A stretch of 45,910 bases of DNA from Synergistaceae bacterium. Lineage in GTDB: Bacteria > Synergistota > Synergistia > Synergistales > Aminobacteriaceae. Below, in pieces: positions 23,651 to 30,662 of this stretch. Location of the stretch: NCBI GenBank assembly GCA_012521675.1, contig JAAYLU010000023.1:1-45910 (forward strand), written 5' to 3'. The notes beneath the pieces were generated by a model. That model made no database searches. It was given only the letters and a program-made list of their open reading frames with translations, and had not been told where the DNA came from. Each line of letters starts with the position of its first letter. The first letter of the stretch is position 1. The position numbers and the translations under genes are program-made.

Positions 23651-23674
23651 TAACAATACCGGGAGGTGCCACTC

Positions 23675-25627
23675 ATGTATTCAGCCTTCTTTCCCGTCGC
23701 GGGCGACCCTCTGTCCGGCCAGGCGCAGGACGCCGGCATAATGCCGCCGTCCAGAACGGCCGGAGACCCGGAGAGGACGGACAGTTTCGCCCGCCTGCTC
23801 TTCTCGACCAGGGAGGAGCCCGCGCAGACGCCTGGAGACACGGAACAGACCCCGGAGACACCCGCCGGGAGCATCCTCTTTTTCCCCCTTGCGGAAACCG
23901 ACCTGTTTCCTGACGAAGAAGACGACCTTGCAGACGACGAACGTGCCCTTGAAATACCCGTGCCTCCTGCGGAGGCCGGGGCGGCGTTTGTCGCGGAGTT
24001 CCTTGCCGCGGCGAAGCAGCCGCCTATTACCATGACGACACCTGCCGCCGAAGTGATGGCAGTAGGCCCAGAGGCGGTGGAATCACCGGACTTAGCCGAT
24101 CCCCGGACGAGCGACGAGAATCGCATGCCGGTGGAGGTTGAACCCGGCGAGCCGCACAGAGATGGTGGCTTCGCTCTTCCCGAGGGCATGCAGCCTGTGC
24201 GAGAGGACGATCCGGACGCAAGGGAACTGCTGTCGAGGCCGATTCCCCGCGCGAGGCCCGCAAGCGGCGGCGCACGACAGGAGAGAGCCAGTCCGGTGGA
24301 ACGGCCGGACGAACGACGGACCTCCCCGACACGCCCCCTTCCATTCATCGAGAGCGCACGGACGGAGCCCGTCAGGACCCTTATGAGCACGGGCCGCGTC
24401 CTTGGCGATGCCGGCACATCCGCAGGCCGGGACGAGATCACCGTCGTCCCGACCCTCGAGGAACCCGCCCGGGCCGATGAGACGGCCAGGGCGGCCGGAT
24501 TCACCCTGTCCATGACCGACAATGTGCGCCCCAGGAGGGGCTTCGCTCTTACCTTCGCACTCGACGGTGGGCAGAAGGCCGGGCCCGTGGAGGCCGAGGC
24601 GAACATGCCGGAGCGCCCGGCCCTCTTCGACGACGAATCGGACGATCTCTTCAGGGATGACTCCCCCGAGCGACGCGACCACGCAACCGGCGGACCGGCC
24701 GAGCCGTCGGGAGACGAGACCTCGGCGAGGGACAGAGGCGAGAATGTAGCCTCCGGCCTCTCCGCGACGTTCGACCACGAAAGTGGCAGAGGCGCGAGCG
24801 CCGCCTCCGGCCTCACCGCGGCCGTCGCGGGAGAGAGGGAGCTGAAGGCCGAGGCAGAGTCCGATCTCTCCACGAACCGCATCCCCGAGGGGCGCGATCG
24901 CGAGAGGACCATATTTCCCGAGGAGCGCGACATCTTCGGCGAGAGGGCGCGCGAGACCGCCGCTCCAGCCCTCCCGAGGGCCGCGACTGCTGATACGAGA
25001 GAAACTCCATCCGACCCGGTTCGCGCGAGCGCCGATCCGAAGGGCGCGGCCACGCCCGCGAGGAAACCCGCCGACCAGCCATTGAAGAGCGGAGCGAAGG
25101 ACCAGGAAACCCCGAACCCGACCATGGTCGCACCACGCCCCTGGCACGCCGAGCCCCTCGCCTCGAGGTCGTTCGAGTCGGTCGCCAGGGAGACGGTGCT
25201 CCAGGGGCGCGGAGGAGAGGCCCTTGAGGACGGAGTTCAGCACGTGGTGCGCTTCCTCAGGTCCGAGGGACGGCAGGCGGCGAGCATAATCGTCGACCCG
25301 CCCGCCCTGGGGAGGATCGAGGTGGAGCTCGTCGCCGTCGCAAAGGGCATCGAGGCCTCGATTAAAGTGAGCAGCGATCAGGTCCGACAACTTGTTCAGG
25401 ATCATATAACAGTCCTTCGGAACCATCTCGAACAGCAGGGAGTCCACCTGGGCGAGTTCGTCGTAGACCTTCGCGACAGCAGCGAGGGCAGGCAGGATCG
25501 CGACGGATCAAGCCACAAGCCGCGCCGCGGGCGGACAACCCCTCTGACGGGAGCCGAGGATACCGAGGACATAACGCCATCCTTCAGGATGGATTTGGAG
25601 CACGGGCTGCTTTATCTGCTGGCCTAG
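23675..25627 (+). CDS. fliK: Flagellar hook-length control protein FliK
   Basis: The 650-residue protein measures hook length and triggers the export switch via FlhB. About 510 N-terminal residues are of low complexity, rich in Glu, Arg, Pro, Ala and Thr, and probably disordered. The C-terminal Flg_hook domain (~520-605) has the pattern IVDPPALGRIEVELV, IEASIKVSS, RNHLEQQGVHLGEFVVDL. GGGAGG (23661-23666) places the start at ATG 23675, not at the GTG overlapping it. The protein is longer than the ~400-480 residues of most FliK, as might suit a longer hook subunit. Confidence 0.88.
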   Translation: MYSAFFPVAGDPLSGQAQDAGIMPPSRTAGDPERTDSFARLLFSTREEPAQTPGDTEQTPETPAGSILFFPLAETDLFPDEEDDLADDERALEIPVPPAEAGAAFVAEFLAAAKQPPITMTTPAAEVMAVGPEAVESPDLADPRTSDENRMPVEVEPGEPHRDGGFALPEGMQPVREDDPDARELLSRPIPRARPASGGARQERASPVERPDERRTSPTRPLPFIESARTEPVRTLMSTGRVLGDAGTSAGRDEITVVPTLEEPARADETARAAGFTLSMTDNVRPRRGFALTFALDGGQKAGPVEAEANMPERPALFDDESDDLFRDDSPERRDHATGGPAEPSGDETSARDRGENVASGLSATFDHESGRGASAASGLTAAVAGERELKAEAESDLSTNRIPEGRDRERTIFPEERDIFGERARETAAPALPRAATADTRETPSDPVRASADPKGAATPARKPADQPLKSGAKDQETPNPTMVAPRPWHAEPLASRSFESVARETVLQGRGGEALEDGVQHVVRFLRSEGRQAASIIVDPPALGRIEVELVAVAKGIEASIKVSSDQVRQLVQDHITVLRNHLEQQGVHLGEFVVDLRDSSEGRQDRDGSSHKPRRGRTTPLTGAEDTEDITPSFRMDLEHGLLYLLA

Positions 25628-26168: not shown

Positions 26169-27524
26169 ATGCTTCGATCTTTAATGTCGGGCGTGTCGGG
26201 CGCCAGGGGGCATCAGACCTTCCTGGACGTCGTCGCTAACAATATAGCGAACGTCAACACAGTGGGCTTCAAGAAGTCCAACATCACCTTCCAGGACCTG
26301 CTCTACCAGACCCACAGGGGCGCCATGCCCCCGGCGGAGGGCAGGGGCGGGGTGAACTCGATCCAGGTCGGCCTCGGGGTCCGCGTCGCGGCCATCGAGA
26401 CGATCCACACCCAGGGGAACATCAACTTCACCGGAGGCAACACGGACGTAGCCATCCAGGGCGAGGGCTACTTCGTCGTCATGGACGGCAACAGCAGGCT
26501 CTTCACCAGGGGGGGCAACTTCACCGTGGACTCGGAGAACAAGATTGTCCAGTCGGGGACCGGGTACAGGGTCCAGGGCTACCAGATGGTGCCGGACCCC
26601 AACGACCCGACAAAGTTCAACAGGAGTTCCACCCTTACGGACGTAACCATCCCGATCGGCTCCAAGATGGAGGCGCGCGCCACCCAGACCGTGGGCTTCA
26701 GGTGCAACCTCGACAGCAGATCGGCTGTCGTCGAACCCGCAGACTGGGACCCGGCCACGTGGGACCCGTACGCCGACCCGCCCATGGACCCGCCGCCTGC
26801 CGCCAGCTCCCACAGGTCGCAGATAGAGATCTACGACTCCTTGGGCAACCCGCACGAACTGATCGTGCAGTGGGTTCACACAGGAGACCCGGCGGACAAC
26901 GAGTGGAGCTGGGTAGCATATCTGACTGACGGAAACCCGCCGTTTATCGATAGAGGAGTACTTAACTTCGGCCCCGACGGCAAACCCGTGGCGGGAGCAG
27001 TCACTCAGCCGCAGGTTACGATCGACTTCACCGCCCTCGGCGCGGCCTCGTCCGACATAGTCCTCGACTTCGCCGGAGAGTCATTCGAGAAACCTCCAAT
27101 CGAGGGCGTTACTCAGTACGGCTCCCCCTTCACCACCAAGGGCTACTACCAGGACGGCTGCTCGATGGGCGTGATGGACAGCTTCGCCGTCTCGGCCGAC
27201 GGCACAGTGATGGCCACCTACGACAATGGCCAGAACGTCCCGATGTTCAGGCTGGCGCTGGCCACCTTCGTCAACGCCTCCGGCCTCACCAAGGTGGGTG
27301 ACACTGTCTTCAGGGAGAGCAGCAACTCCGGCCTCGCCAGAATAGGCGTTCCCATGGAGGACGGAGCGGGCGCGCTTATTGGCGGTGCGCTGGAGATGTC
27401 CAACATCGACCTGACGGAGGAGTTCACCAGGCTCATCCTGGCCCAGAGGGGCTTCCAGGCCAACGCCAGGGTGATAAACACCAGCGACCAGGTGCTGGAG
27501 GAGCAGATAAACATAAAGAGATAG
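26169..27524 (+). CDS. flgE: Flagellar hook protein FlgE (first paralogue)
   Basis: A 451-residue hook-family protein. The N-terminal D0 region has MLRSLMSGVSG and NNIANVNTVGFKKS (~residues 27-40). The second conserved block is GEGYFVVMDGNSRLFTRGGNF. The C-terminal D0 helix ends AQRGFQANARVINTSDQVLEE. The middle (residues ~178-235) is short and Pro/Asp/Trp-rich (DWDPATWDPYADPPMDPPP) before the shared IYDSLGNPHELIVQW strand. The size is typical for a hook subunit. It is a tandem paralogue of the next gene; which of the two builds the main hook cannot be decided from sequence. Confidence 0.93.
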   Translation: MLRSLMSGVSGARGHQTFLDVVANNIANVNTVGFKKSNITFQDLLYQTHRGAMPPAEGRGGVNSIQVGLGVRVAAIETIHTQGNINFTGGNTDVAIQGEGYFVVMDGNSRLFTRGGNFTVDSENKIVQSGTGYRVQGYQMVPDPNDPTKFNRSSTLTDVTIPIGSKMEARATQTVGFRCNLDSRSAVVEPADWDPATWDPYADPPMDPPPAASSHRSQIEIYDSLGNPHELIVQWVHTGDPADNEWSWVAYLTDGNPPFIDRGVLNFGPDGKPVAGAVTQPQVTIDFTALGAASSDIVLDFAGESFEKPPIEGVTQYGSPFTTKGYYQDGCSMGVMDSFAVSADGTVMATYDNGQNVPMFRLALATFVNASGLTKVGDTVFRESSNSGLARIGVPMEDGAGALIGGALEMSNIDLTEEFTRLILAQRGFQANARVINTSDQVLEEQINIKR

Positions 27525-27701
27525 CCCAGATAAGCGCCAGGGGCGATCGGTGAGATGACACGCCCCGGGCGAGCAAGGACTTAAGAACGGACGAAAAATC
27601 GCCGAAACCAACATGTACAAAACGCCCTCCACGGACGGCCGGGCACCCAACTCAAAGCAAGGGATTGCTACATACACTAGAAAAGCAAGGAGGAATGCGC
27701 T
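27525..27701 (+). promoter_or_regulatory. 177-base gap between the hook genes: hairpin and weak sigma-28-like site
   Basis: GGGGCG (27540-27545) and CGCCCC (27561-27566) can pair around a 15-base loop; no T-run follows. Further on, TAAG (27582-27585) and GCCGAAAC (27601-27608), 15 bases apart, are a weak sigma-28-like match (3/4 and 6/8). AAGGAGGAA gives the second hook gene a strong ribosome binding site. The gap therefore could let the two hook genes be expressed at different levels. No gene is seen in it. Confidence 0.35.
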
Positions 27702-30662
27702 ATGCTGCGATCCCTTATGTCAGGCGTCTCGGGCGTCAGAGGGCACCAGACCTCGCTTGACGTCGTCGGCAACAACATCGCCAACGTCAACACCGCGGGG
27801 TATAAAAGATCCACCATCACCTTTCAGGACCTTCTGTATCAGAACACCAGCAACACGATGGCCCCCGGAGATCAGAGGGGCGGAGTCAACGCCAAGCAGA
27901 TAGGACTGGGGATGCAGGTCTCGGCCATAGAGGTGCTGCACACCCAGGGCACTACGGAGTTCACCGGCAACAGAACCGATTTCGCCATCGAGGGCGACGG
28001 CTACTTCGTCATCAAGGACGGCGACGGCAACCTGTTCACAAGAGCGGGCAACTTCGTGCTGGACGCCGAGAGCGACCTCGTCCAGGCAGGCACCGGCTAC
28101 AGGCTGCAGGGCTACCAGATAGTGCGTGACCCGATCGACCCGCTGCAGTTCAACCAGGGCTCCACCCTGACGGACATCAACATCCCCACCGGGCAGAAGA
28201 TGGAGGCCAGGGCCACCACGGTGGTCGGCTACCGGTGCAACCTGGACAGCCGCGCCGCCACCTACCTTCCGATGGGCCTCACCTGGAACAACTTCTCCAC
28301 GGTCGCCACGCTGAACAACCAGAGGTACGACGTCACGATGCAGGAGGGCACGACAGCCGACTCCTTCATGACCCTGACAGTTGGCGGCCAGGACCTGGTG
28401 ATGAGGCTGACCGGCGTGGACGCCGGCACCGGCAGGCCGATGCTCGTCTGCGACGGCTTCTTCGATGACGGAGCCACCGTCTACTCGGTCGAGTTCGACC
28501 CGGCCACCTGCGTCCTCTCGCTCAAGAGCATCGACCCCAGCAACCCGGAGGAATGGTCGCTGAACCTCGAGGACCACATGGACTACCAGCAGTTTACGAT
28601 AGTGGACGGCACCACTCGCTACTCCTATCTCGCCGAGTTCACCGACATAGCCGCGGACGGGAGCAGGAGCCTGCGCCTTTGGGGGAAGGACGAAAGTGGC
28701 GAGATGGCGGTGTTCGAGTACACGGTCAGGATGAACGATGACGGCTCGTTCGACATACCCGACGGAGCGATCGACGGGGTCACTCGGCTCGGCGGCTTCG
28801 CCGGCGGCGCCTACGTCACGATAAGCAACGCCACCGGCGGAAGAGGGATCGAGCTGACCAGCAGCGTCGAGATAGTCGACTCTTCTGGAATAACTGGCCT
28901 CGTCGGAGTGAGGCCGACCATACTTAGAAATATCGAGATTGACGGCAAGGAATACGATGTAACGATTACGGAGGGAAACCCTGGCAGCGGCTATGTCACG
29001 ATGCGCTTTGTCGACCGAGGCGATCCGAACAACACGGGGACTTTACAGCTTAACTACAATGGAGCAACTGATGGAGTTATCCATCTGACTGAGAGTGGAA
29101 CGGTTACTCTTGATGGCAAGGCCTATGAAATCACTCCTAACTCGGCTGTTCTAGATACTGCTACTTCCCAAGGGAGTGTAACCTTAAGGGACGTACTTAC
29201 GAGTACCGATCTTCCGCCATTGCAATTCCAAATCGGGTTTTGGCATGATCCCCTCGCGGATGCTAACTCTCCACTAGGGAACGGATTTGGAACTAATTTA
29301 TTCGGGGAGTTTGATTCGCGCGGGGCGGGGGACTACAGGTTTACCGTATTGGGTGGGGCTGCTAATGATCCGAGGTTTGTGGAGATAGAAACCAATAATT
29401 TCCGCCAGTACGTTAGAAACGTGCCTGCAGATACGACCGTGACGGTTGGGGGCAATCCATATGATGTGAGCCTTACCCCGGGTTCTACTTCCGATAATGT
29501 TATGACACTGACGTTCACTAGAGGCGGTGTGTCGAGTACTGTTGACTTCGGAATGGCCGGCGTGGTCGGGAATCGTGTGGTATTGGAAGCGACTGCGCCT
29601 ATTACCCTTCCTGGGGCAGGAGGCCCGACCTTTAATCCGACGGTGTCGCCGTCACATATAGTCTACGATCCTGCCACCGGCGTGATTAACTTCGATAATG
29701 GAACGGACAGCTTTACCTACGACCTCGGGAACTACGGCAATTTTCATGTTTTTCCCGATAATAGCACCCCTGCAAATCACTATGCAGTGGACTTCGTCGA
29801 GGCAGGCAGCGGGGCATTCACGATGAGGGTATGGGATGCCTCGGGTACGGCGACCGGAGCCCCGAACAGCTTCAACATCCCCGTCACCCGGGACGGCAAC
29901 ATGCAGGCCCTGTCGACGATCAACCAGCGCATCGCCAACGTCCACAACACGAAGATCGACGTCTACGACTCGCTCGGGAACAACTACACTCTGGAGGTCT
30001 CCTGGGAGAAGCAGGACAATGGAATCTGGCGTTGGCGGGCGTGGATGCCGGACAGCGAGATCTCGCTGAGTAACAACACGGGGCTCATCCGCTTCGGGCC
30101 TGACGGCAAGATCGACACCACGGACACGGGCATGTACAACGCCAGGCCGATCATCAACGTCCAGTTCGACGAGGTGGGCGCGATGGAGTCGGAGATCAGG
30201 CTAGACTTCTCCGGCGAGAGCTTCCAGAAGGAGCTGCTCGACGGAGTGACCCAGTACGGCTCCGAGTTCACCACCAAGGGCTACTACCAGGACGGCTACA
30301 CGATGGGAGTGCTGACGGACTTCGCGGTTGCGCAGGACGGCACGGTGAACGGCATCTACAGCAACGGCCAGAACATACCGCTGTACAGGGTGGCCCTGGC
30401 GCTGTTCGCCAACCCTGCGGGCCTGGTCAAGATAGGCGACACGGCCTTCAGGGACAGCAACAACTCCGGCGTACCGCAGATCGGATCTCCGCTTGAGGAC
30501 GGCGCGGGTGCCATCATCGGCTCGTCGCTGGAGATGTCCAACGTCGATCTAACGGAGGAGTTCACCAAACTGATCACCTCCCAGAGGGGCTTCCAGGCCA
30601 ACGCCAGGATGATCACGACCAGCGACCAGGTGCTGGAAGAGCTGATCAACATCAAGCGCTAG
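27702..30662 (+). CDS. Very large flagellar hook-family protein FlgE2 with repeated insert
   Basis: The 986-residue protein has the same ends as FlgE: MLRSLMSGVSGVRGHQT, NNIANVNTAGYKRS, GDGYFVIKDGDGNLFTRAGNF and the C-terminal SQRGFQANARMITTSDQV. Between residues ~190 and ~745 it carries about 500 residues more than the first paralogue, inserted just before VYDSLGNNYTLEVSW. The insert consists of beta-rich repeats (three YDV-type units and two DPAT-type units, annotated separately) and would form extra surface domains on the hook or a hook-like section. Its second half is markedly lower in G+C. Strong ribosome binding site AAGGAGG. It could be the main hook subunit, a distal hook variant or an adhesive surface form. 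Confidence 0.88.
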   Translation: MLRSLMSGVSGVRGHQTSLDVVGNNIANVNTAGYKRSTITFQDLLYQNTSNTMAPGDQRGGVNAKQIGLGMQVSAIEVLHTQGTTEFTGNRTDFAIEGDGYFVIKDGDGNLFTRAGNFVLDAESDLVQAGTGYRLQGYQIVRDPIDPLQFNQGSTLTDINIPTGQKMEARATTVVGYRCNLDSRAATYLPMGLTWNNFSTVATLNNQRYDVTMQEGTTADSFMTLTVGGQDLVMRLTGVDAGTGRPMLVCDGFFDDGATVYSVEFDPATCVLSLKSIDPSNPEEWSLNLEDHMDYQQFTIVDGTTRYSYLAEFTDIAADGSRSLRLWGKDESGEMAVFEYTVRMNDDGSFDIPDGAIDGVTRLGGFAGGAYVTISNATGGRGIELTSSVEIVDSSGITGLVGVRPTILRNIEIDGKEYDVTITEGNPGSGYVTMRFVDRGDPNNTGTLQLNYNGATDGVIHLTESGTVTLDGKAYEITPNSAVLDTATSQGSVTLRDVLTSTDLPPLQFQIGFWHDPLADANSPLGNGFGTNLFGEFDSRGAGDYRFTVLGGAANDPRFVEIETNNFRQYVRNVPADTTVTVGGNPYDVSLTPGSTSDNVMTLTFTRGGVSSTVDFGMAGVVGNRVVLEATAPITLPGAGGPTFNPTVSPSHIVYDPATGVINFDNGTDSFTYDLGNYGNFHVFPDNSTPANHYAVDFVEAGSGAFTMRVWDASGTATGAPNSFNIPVTRDGNMQALSTINQRIANVHNTKIDVYDSLGNNYTLEVSWEKQDNGIWRWRAWMPDSEISLSNNTGLIRFGPDGKIDTTDTGMYNARPIINVQFDEVGAMESEIRLDFSGESFQKELLDGVTQYGSEFTTKGYYQDGYTMGVLTDFAVAQDGTVNGIYSNGQNIPLYRVALALFANPAGLVKIGDTAFRDSNNSGVPQIGSPLEDGAGAIIGSSLEMSNVDLTEEFTKLITSQRGFQANARMITTSDQVLEELINIKR
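28311..28457 (+). repeat. YDV-type protein repeat, copy 1 (FlgE2 residues ~204-252)
   Basis: Residues around Tyr209 read RYDVTMQEGTTADSFMTLTV. Copies 2 and 3 have the same order: Tyr-Asp-Val, an acidic/Gly turn, a Ser-rich loop, then Met/Val-Thr and alternating hydrophobics. This copy lies in DNA with the window's usual high G+C, unlike the other two copies. Confidence 0.6.
28476..28770 (+). repeat. DPAT-type protein repeat, copy 1 (FlgE2 residues ~259-356)
   Basis: It begins VYSVEFDPATCVLSL and continues through YQQFTIVDGTTRYSYLAEF to SRSLRLWGKDESGE. The later copy has the same sequence of elements: V-x-(F/Y)-DPAT-x-V, an acidic stretch, Y-x-(N/Q)-F, a turn, Y-x-(V/L)-x-F, then (M/L)R(V/L)W. 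High G+C, as in the flanks. Confidence 0.55.
28938..29100 (+). repeat. YDV-type protein repeat, copy 2 (FlgE2 residues ~413-467)
   Basis: Around Tyr418 the protein reads DGKEYDVTITEGNPGSGYVT, matching copy 1 in order and spacing of Tyr-Asp-Val-Thr, Glu-Gly, Gly/Ser loop and the following strand. The DNA is low in G+C. A shorter partial relative (DGKAYEIT, near base 29110) follows directly. Confidence 0.6.
29445..29600 (+). repeat. YDV-type protein repeat, copy 3 (FlgE2 residues ~582-633)
   Basis: Around Tyr587 the protein reads GGNPYDVSLTPGSTSDNVMT. It shares Tyr-Asp-Val, the Gly/Ser loop and the MTLT strand with copy 1 (SFMTLTV against NVMTLTF). It lies in the low-GC segment. Confidence 0.6.
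29655..29900 (+). repeat. DPAT-type protein repeat, copy 2 (FlgE2 residues ~652-733)
   Basis: It begins HIVYDPATGVINFDNG, then YGNFHVFPDN, HYAVDFVEAGSGAFTMRVWD. It mirrors copy 1 at 28476-28770 element by element, but is shorter in the middle. Together with the YDV units it suggests an A-B ... A ... A-B domain order in the insert. The DNA returns to high G+C within this unit. Confidence 0.55.

Follow-up and report, generated by a model that had tools for sequence, protein, structure and literature searches.

The second of two tandem hook genes in a 45,910-nucleotide stretch of Synergistaceae DNA (the window), flgE2, probably encodes a flagellar hook subunit whose surface-layer domain D3 would have expanded from a single unit to three tandem copies, of which one is partial, with the outer layer swapped between lineages by recombination and the polymerising core D0-D1-D2 inherited vertically. 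A wider and stiffer hook, possibly with cross-linked subunits, would be the outcome. The hook is commonly regarded as a conserved universal joint. Within a single phylum its surface layer is here anything between absent and very large; it expands by tandem repetition and seems to pass from one family to another, the core staying in place. FlgE2 is about twice the usual size of a hook protein and carries its outer surface domain three times in a row.

Locus and assignment of the giant hook protein

The window is contig C23 of a fragmented genome (G000, 121 contigs), the GTDB relatives of which are Synergistetes MAGs. The gene order is flgD - flgE1 - flgE2 - small flbD-like gene - motA - motB - fliL, where names other than those of the two hook genes were assigned from reading of the translations. 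The features discussed below, with the basis of each, are as follows.

26169..27524, + strand: flgE1, 451-aa hook protein without D3, tandem partner of flgE2 (open reading frame, domain search and alignment)
27687..27693, + strand: Shine-Dalgarno sequence AAGGAGG, 8 nt 5' of the flgE2 ATG (read from the sequence)
27702..30662, + strand: flgE2, 986-aa giant hook protein, stop codon included in the coordinates (open reading frame, domains, PDB matches)
27702..28271, + strand: FlgE2 N-terminal core, residues 1-190; D0, D1 and start of D2 (Pfam, alignment with FlgE1)
28197..28241, + strand: Lys166, Cys179 and Asn180 of FlgE2, aligned with Treponema K165, C178 and N179 (alignment)
28266..28916, + strand: D3 copy A, residues 189-405, HMM match 189-388 (shuffled alignments, HMM, model)
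28890..29875, + strand: outer tract in which GC3 is low and synonymous divergence raised, a probable recombinational replacement with approximate edges (composition, divergence, four-fold sites)
28917..29456, + strand: segment B, residues 406-585, of which residues 410-488 are a partial D3 copy (shuffled alignments, HMM)
29424..29930, + strand: D3 copy C, residues 575-743 (shuffled alignments, HMM)
29937..30659, + strand: FlgE2 C-terminal core, residues 746-986; D2, D1 and D0 (Pfam, alignment with FlgE1)
30270..30278, + strand: Thr857-Thr858-Lys859 of FlgE2, aligned with Treponema T334, T335 and K336 (alignment)

The original prediction of an intact flgE2 with a strong ribosome binding site holds: the reading frame 27702-30662 is unbroken and AAGGAGG lies 8 nt before the ATG. 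The two tandem hooks also have their terminal parts in common, as had been claimed, with 66% identity over residues 1-190 and 56% over residues 748-986. A FliK-like gene (23666-25627, + strand, 653 aa) is fast-evolving, with 55% identity to its counterpart in the related genome G017 over the aligned part, in contrast to the 86-90% identity of flgD, flgE1, motA and motB.

FlgE core domains are present in both FlgE1 and FlgE2. The N- and C-terminal rod/hook and FlgE D1 domains PF00460, PF22692 and PF06429 score above the Pfam cut-off in FlgE2, as does the FlgE D2 domain (PF07559, 53.3 bits, cut-off 22.7). Both proteins pass the subfamily model TIGR03506, and FlgE2 matches solved FlgE structures. 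The best NCBIfam FlgE equivalog score of FlgE2 (NF004241, 412.9 bits) is below the cut-off of 469, and FlgE1, of ordinary size, likewise falls under it (422); these models appear not to be tuned to Synergistota. Since both hooks miss the equivalog cut-offs, the FlgE naming rests on Pfam, TIGR03506 and the solved structures. Sequence evidence thus supports the identification of FlgE2 as a hook-type protein with a repeated beta-rich insert.

Repeats and probable exchange of the outer layer

The extra block of FlgE2 occupies residues ~191-745 between the FlgE1-like ends. Its existence had been correctly predicted, and its size is ~555 rather than ~500 residues. Three YDV-type motifs (at 209, 418 and 587) and two DPAT-type motifs (at 266 and 656) are found in it, in agreement with the earlier count of at least three and two; DTAT occurs at residue 485. 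Self-alignment of FlgE2 gave a best internal score of 88, versus a maximum of 56 in 60 shuffles. In local alignments of segments A (191-405), B (406-585) and C (586-745) against shuffled sequences, A and C scored 85 (shuffles 34 +/- 5; reached by 0 of 1000) and B and C scored 60 (3 of 1000), and the similarity of A and B was weak (47; 33 of 1000). An HMM of D3 was built from 40 relatives with a single-unit insert, FlgE2 being excluded, and it matched FlgE2 at residues 189-388 (3e-48), 410-488 (3e-7) and 575-743 (7e-21), with E-values for a set of ~75 inserts. Judged by these matches, copies A and C are the ordinary D3 of Synergistota hooks, and B, which is partial and weaker than A and C, holds part of a third copy.

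Copy A is predicted to be all-beta (mean pLDDT 75, best blocks >90) and, at E <= 0.001, matches neither a PDB fold nor a viral one. The model of full-length FlgE2 is poor (mean pLDDT 46.6), and its Foldseek matches beyond FlgE, to propeller-type peptidases and sortilin, were ignored for this reason. Searches of the insert against Pfam, PDB sequences, PDB folds and viral folds gave no match. No D3-like units were detected in other proteins of the window's genome with a model that included the window's own copies. The D3 unit is a putative beta-rich domain, seen here only in Synergistota hooks.

The relatives do not all contain the same continuous insert: they carry 0, 1, 2 or 3 units. In a set of 96 Synergistota hook proteins in which both termini were matched, the shortest has 431 aa and the longest 1487 aa, not counting a 376-aa protein truncated at a contig end. 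Most have one D3 unit, and two or three are found in a few lineages. Three units are present in G000, G017, G018 and G104 and two in G108; G101 carries a related block, and the hooks of G111 and G113 have 1487 and 1334 aa. These last two (L112:634-5094 and L113:1644-5645) are bigger than FlgE2, and a short hook gene lies closely 3' of each. The three-unit layout is kept with intact frames in G017 (987 aa, 76% identical) and G018 (993 aa, 70%). In the core tree, which keeps genera together, both paralogues of G000 have those of G017 as sisters, with G018 branching next.

The history of the multi-unit blocks is different from that of the core. The copies of G104 (family f5) cluster with those of G108, G111 and G113 (f6), and the copies of the window's genus cluster with those of G101 (f4). 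No multi-unit copy clusters with the single-unit D3 found in its own genus, and AU tests reject every constrained own-genus placement (p 3e-8 to 0.004). The f5-f6 case cannot be explained by binning error, because G104 and G113 are single-contig genomes; the G101 case is weaker, because its contig is only 3.5 kb. The D3 copies are short and divergent, and alignment error could inflate the tree conflict. Since vertical placement of the multi-unit blocks is rejected by the tree tests, the outer domain appears to have been exchanged laterally between lineages, the blocks not following the gene core.

A more recent event may be recorded within flgE2. GC3 changes from 0.86-0.91 to values of 0.49-0.61 in segments B and C, and synonymous sites differ more from G017 in the outer tract (0.65-0.77, up from ~0.4), most neighbouring genes being at ~0.5. 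The edges of the tract lie near codons 397-405 and 710-725, and the synonymous jump within the gene is evident at four-fold sites (113 of 284 changed vs 48 of 78, p = 8e-4). The simplest reading is that the outer ~320 codons of flgE2 were replaced recently in G000; the matching tree switch is suggestive (UFBoot 94), and the topology tests are not significant (p-AU 0.19; quartet p-AU 0.31). No close donor for the tract was found among 188 genomes of the phylum. The insert is thus a mosaic in a stronger sense than originally claimed, the outer block having a base composition and a history of its own. An assembly chimera or misbinned DNA might be invoked in view of the sharp composition break and the fragmented genome; this is highly improbable, given the intact frame and the occurrence of the same layout in G017 and G018, and was rejected on account of these full-length relatives.

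Lysinoalanine signature and the possible role of the short paralogues

In Treponema, Lys165 and Cys178, aided by Asn179, bond hook subunits covalently (PMC10691653, PMC9254593), and the Treponema loci compared here give exactly the numbering K165, C178 and N179. K, C and N occupy the aligned positions in both hooks of the window, and Treponema Thr334 and Lys336 are matched by T857 and K859 of FlgE2. The 103 readable Synergistota sequences include 87 with K-C-N and three with K-S-N; the latter have the residue pattern of the Leptospira Ser variant, which does cross-link (PMC10691653). Of the 76 long hooks, 72 combine K with C or S, and the remaining four lack K as well as C and S (Fisher 8e-7, uncorrected for descent). 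On the core tree, K and C were lost jointly in at least three separate lineages, and the same four K/C-less long hooks have Ala or Val in place of Thr at Treponema position 335. Both K and C are absent from the C. jejuni and Salmonella FlgE. The conservation of the spirochaete cross-link residues suggests that subunits of Synergistota hooks may be tied by lysinoalanine bonds at the D1-D2 interface.

The 2023 survey of lysinoalanine hooks analysed spirochaete sequences only, and the papers found in the literature searched treat such hooks as spirochaetal. The joint losses of K and C lead to the prediction of lysinoalanine cross-linking outside spirochaetes. We consider the chances about even that external hooks of Synergistota combine covalent locking by lysinoalanine with a cover of repeat-expanded outer domains that are exchanged laterally. 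If this is true, lysinoalanine hooks extend beyond spirochaetes and the hook surface becomes a swappable module; the lysinoalanine by-product may matter more than the giant hook itself.

A short D3-less paralogue alongside the long hook gene arose separately in g1, g13, f4, f6 and f8, with moderate support in places. In nine short paralogues C is retained without K. These belong to f4 and f8 (L118, L119, L123, L137, L138, L140, L141, L144 and L170) and have V, T, E or S in place of Lys; a cross-linked polymer could afford such a loss in a subunit that sits at one of its ends.

That a short gene arose repeatedly beside a long one points to a division of labour, whereby FlgE1 would build the hook and FlgE2 would be a minor or conditional subunit, located for example at one hook end, or hardly used. 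C. jejuni NCTC 11168 offers a precedent, as it has two hook genes and the product of only one is present in the hook (PMC5069557). The loss of the cross-link Lys from the short paralogues of f4 and f8, which a polymer-end subunit could afford, also speaks for it. However, the C. jejuni product present in the hook is the long one. Moreover, many Synergistota have the long hook gene only, so the long type must be hook-competent, and FlgE2 itself has a good ribosome site and a strongly constrained core (dN 0.04-0.06 vs dS ~0.55). A minor role of FlgE2 is therefore unlikely.

Comparison with known hooks and flagellins

A close reference for FlgE2 is the long FlgE of C. jejuni (865 aa; PDB 5jxl, 5az4; PMC5069557, PMC5097172). 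The two proteins have the hook core D0-D1-D2 in common, and the insert of FlgE2 is located inside D2, where C. jejuni FlgE carries D3/D4. By analogy with this surface site, the insert should project outward, as originally proposed. C. jejuni also has a second, shorter hook gene and variable outer domains. In contrast, the inserts match neither in sequence nor in fold (the latter for copy A, E <= 0.001), that of FlgE2 is longer and consists of a single unit repeated, and the window's genome has its two hook genes in tandem. The D3 of Caulobacter crescentus FlgE (PDB 5ay6) has no convincing similarity to the Synergistota unit either (Foldseek E 0.063, TM 0.23).

In C. jejuni, D3/D4 add inter-subunit contacts and make the hook more robust and wider (280 A, versus 180 A in Salmonella), with their variable parts facing outward (PMC5097172). 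By this analogy, the extra units of FlgE2 would form added shells outside D2, like Campylobacter D3 and D4, and the assembled hook would be thick, wide and stiff, its outer face being variable. Assembly can accommodate large inserts at this site, because Salmonella FlgE provided with the C. jejuni D3-D4 gave nearly normal, working flagella (PMC5069557). The same tolerance would permit a surface loop to grow almost neutrally by tandem duplication, with packing undisturbed. This is improbable, since the three-unit layout is kept with intact frames in G000, G017 and G018 and copy A has a dN/dS near 0.2.

Another possibility, close to the adhesive, sheath-binding and phage-avoiding properties originally suggested, is that the outer units are selected for binding rather than for mechanics, as an adhesin, a sheath-binding device or a phage receptor decoy. 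The outer layer is the fastest-varying part and is exchanged between lineages, as expected under recognition pressure, and a similar argument was made for the variable D3/D4 of C. jejuni (PMC5097172). Variability and exchange are, however, no demonstration of binding, and comparison of the insert with Ig-like, adhesin and phage-tail folds gave no match. An Ig-like or adhesin fold was rejected as no family or fold match was recognisable, and a phage origin of the outer block as there was no match in phage records or viral contigs. A binding device is thus conceivable and rather doubtful; mechanical reinforcement combined with a variable surface, as in Campylobacter (PMC5097172), is the better-supported comparison. 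Natural hooks whose outer units number from 0 to 3 offer material for testing the effect of outer domains on stiffness and torque tolerance.

In the window's genome, the flagellin frames measure 711, 915 and 1872 aa and one FlgL-like frame measures 1042 aa, counted from stop to stop. These long frames indicate that the filament and the junction are probably thick too. The 1872-aa frame is located at L179:539-6154 (- strand), the 915-aa frame is on the same contig and the 711-aa frame is elsewhere. The genome G010 of the same family has eighteen flagellin matches, with frames up to 1714 aa. A coupling of giant hooks to giant flagellins was considered and no tight link was found, as flagellin frames of ~780-1000 aa occur phylum-wide, including f11 genomes with 434-aa hooks.

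Spirochaete lysinoalanine FlgE (PMC10691653, PMC9254593; PDB 6ndx) resembles the Synergistota hooks in the aligned positions of Lys, Cys and Asn and of the T-x-K motif. It belongs to another phylum, the Treponema hooks compared have 463 aa without the insert, and in Synergistota the cross-link is a prediction. The closest evolutionary parallel to FlgE2 is the growth of giant flagellins by internal domain duplication (PMC6248924): in both cases a surface domain of a flagellar polymer subunit is repeated in tandem, and related species have fewer copies. Giant flagellins are filament rather than hook proteins and grew stepwise by descent, whereas multi-unit blocks of the FlgE2 type appear also to move between lineages.
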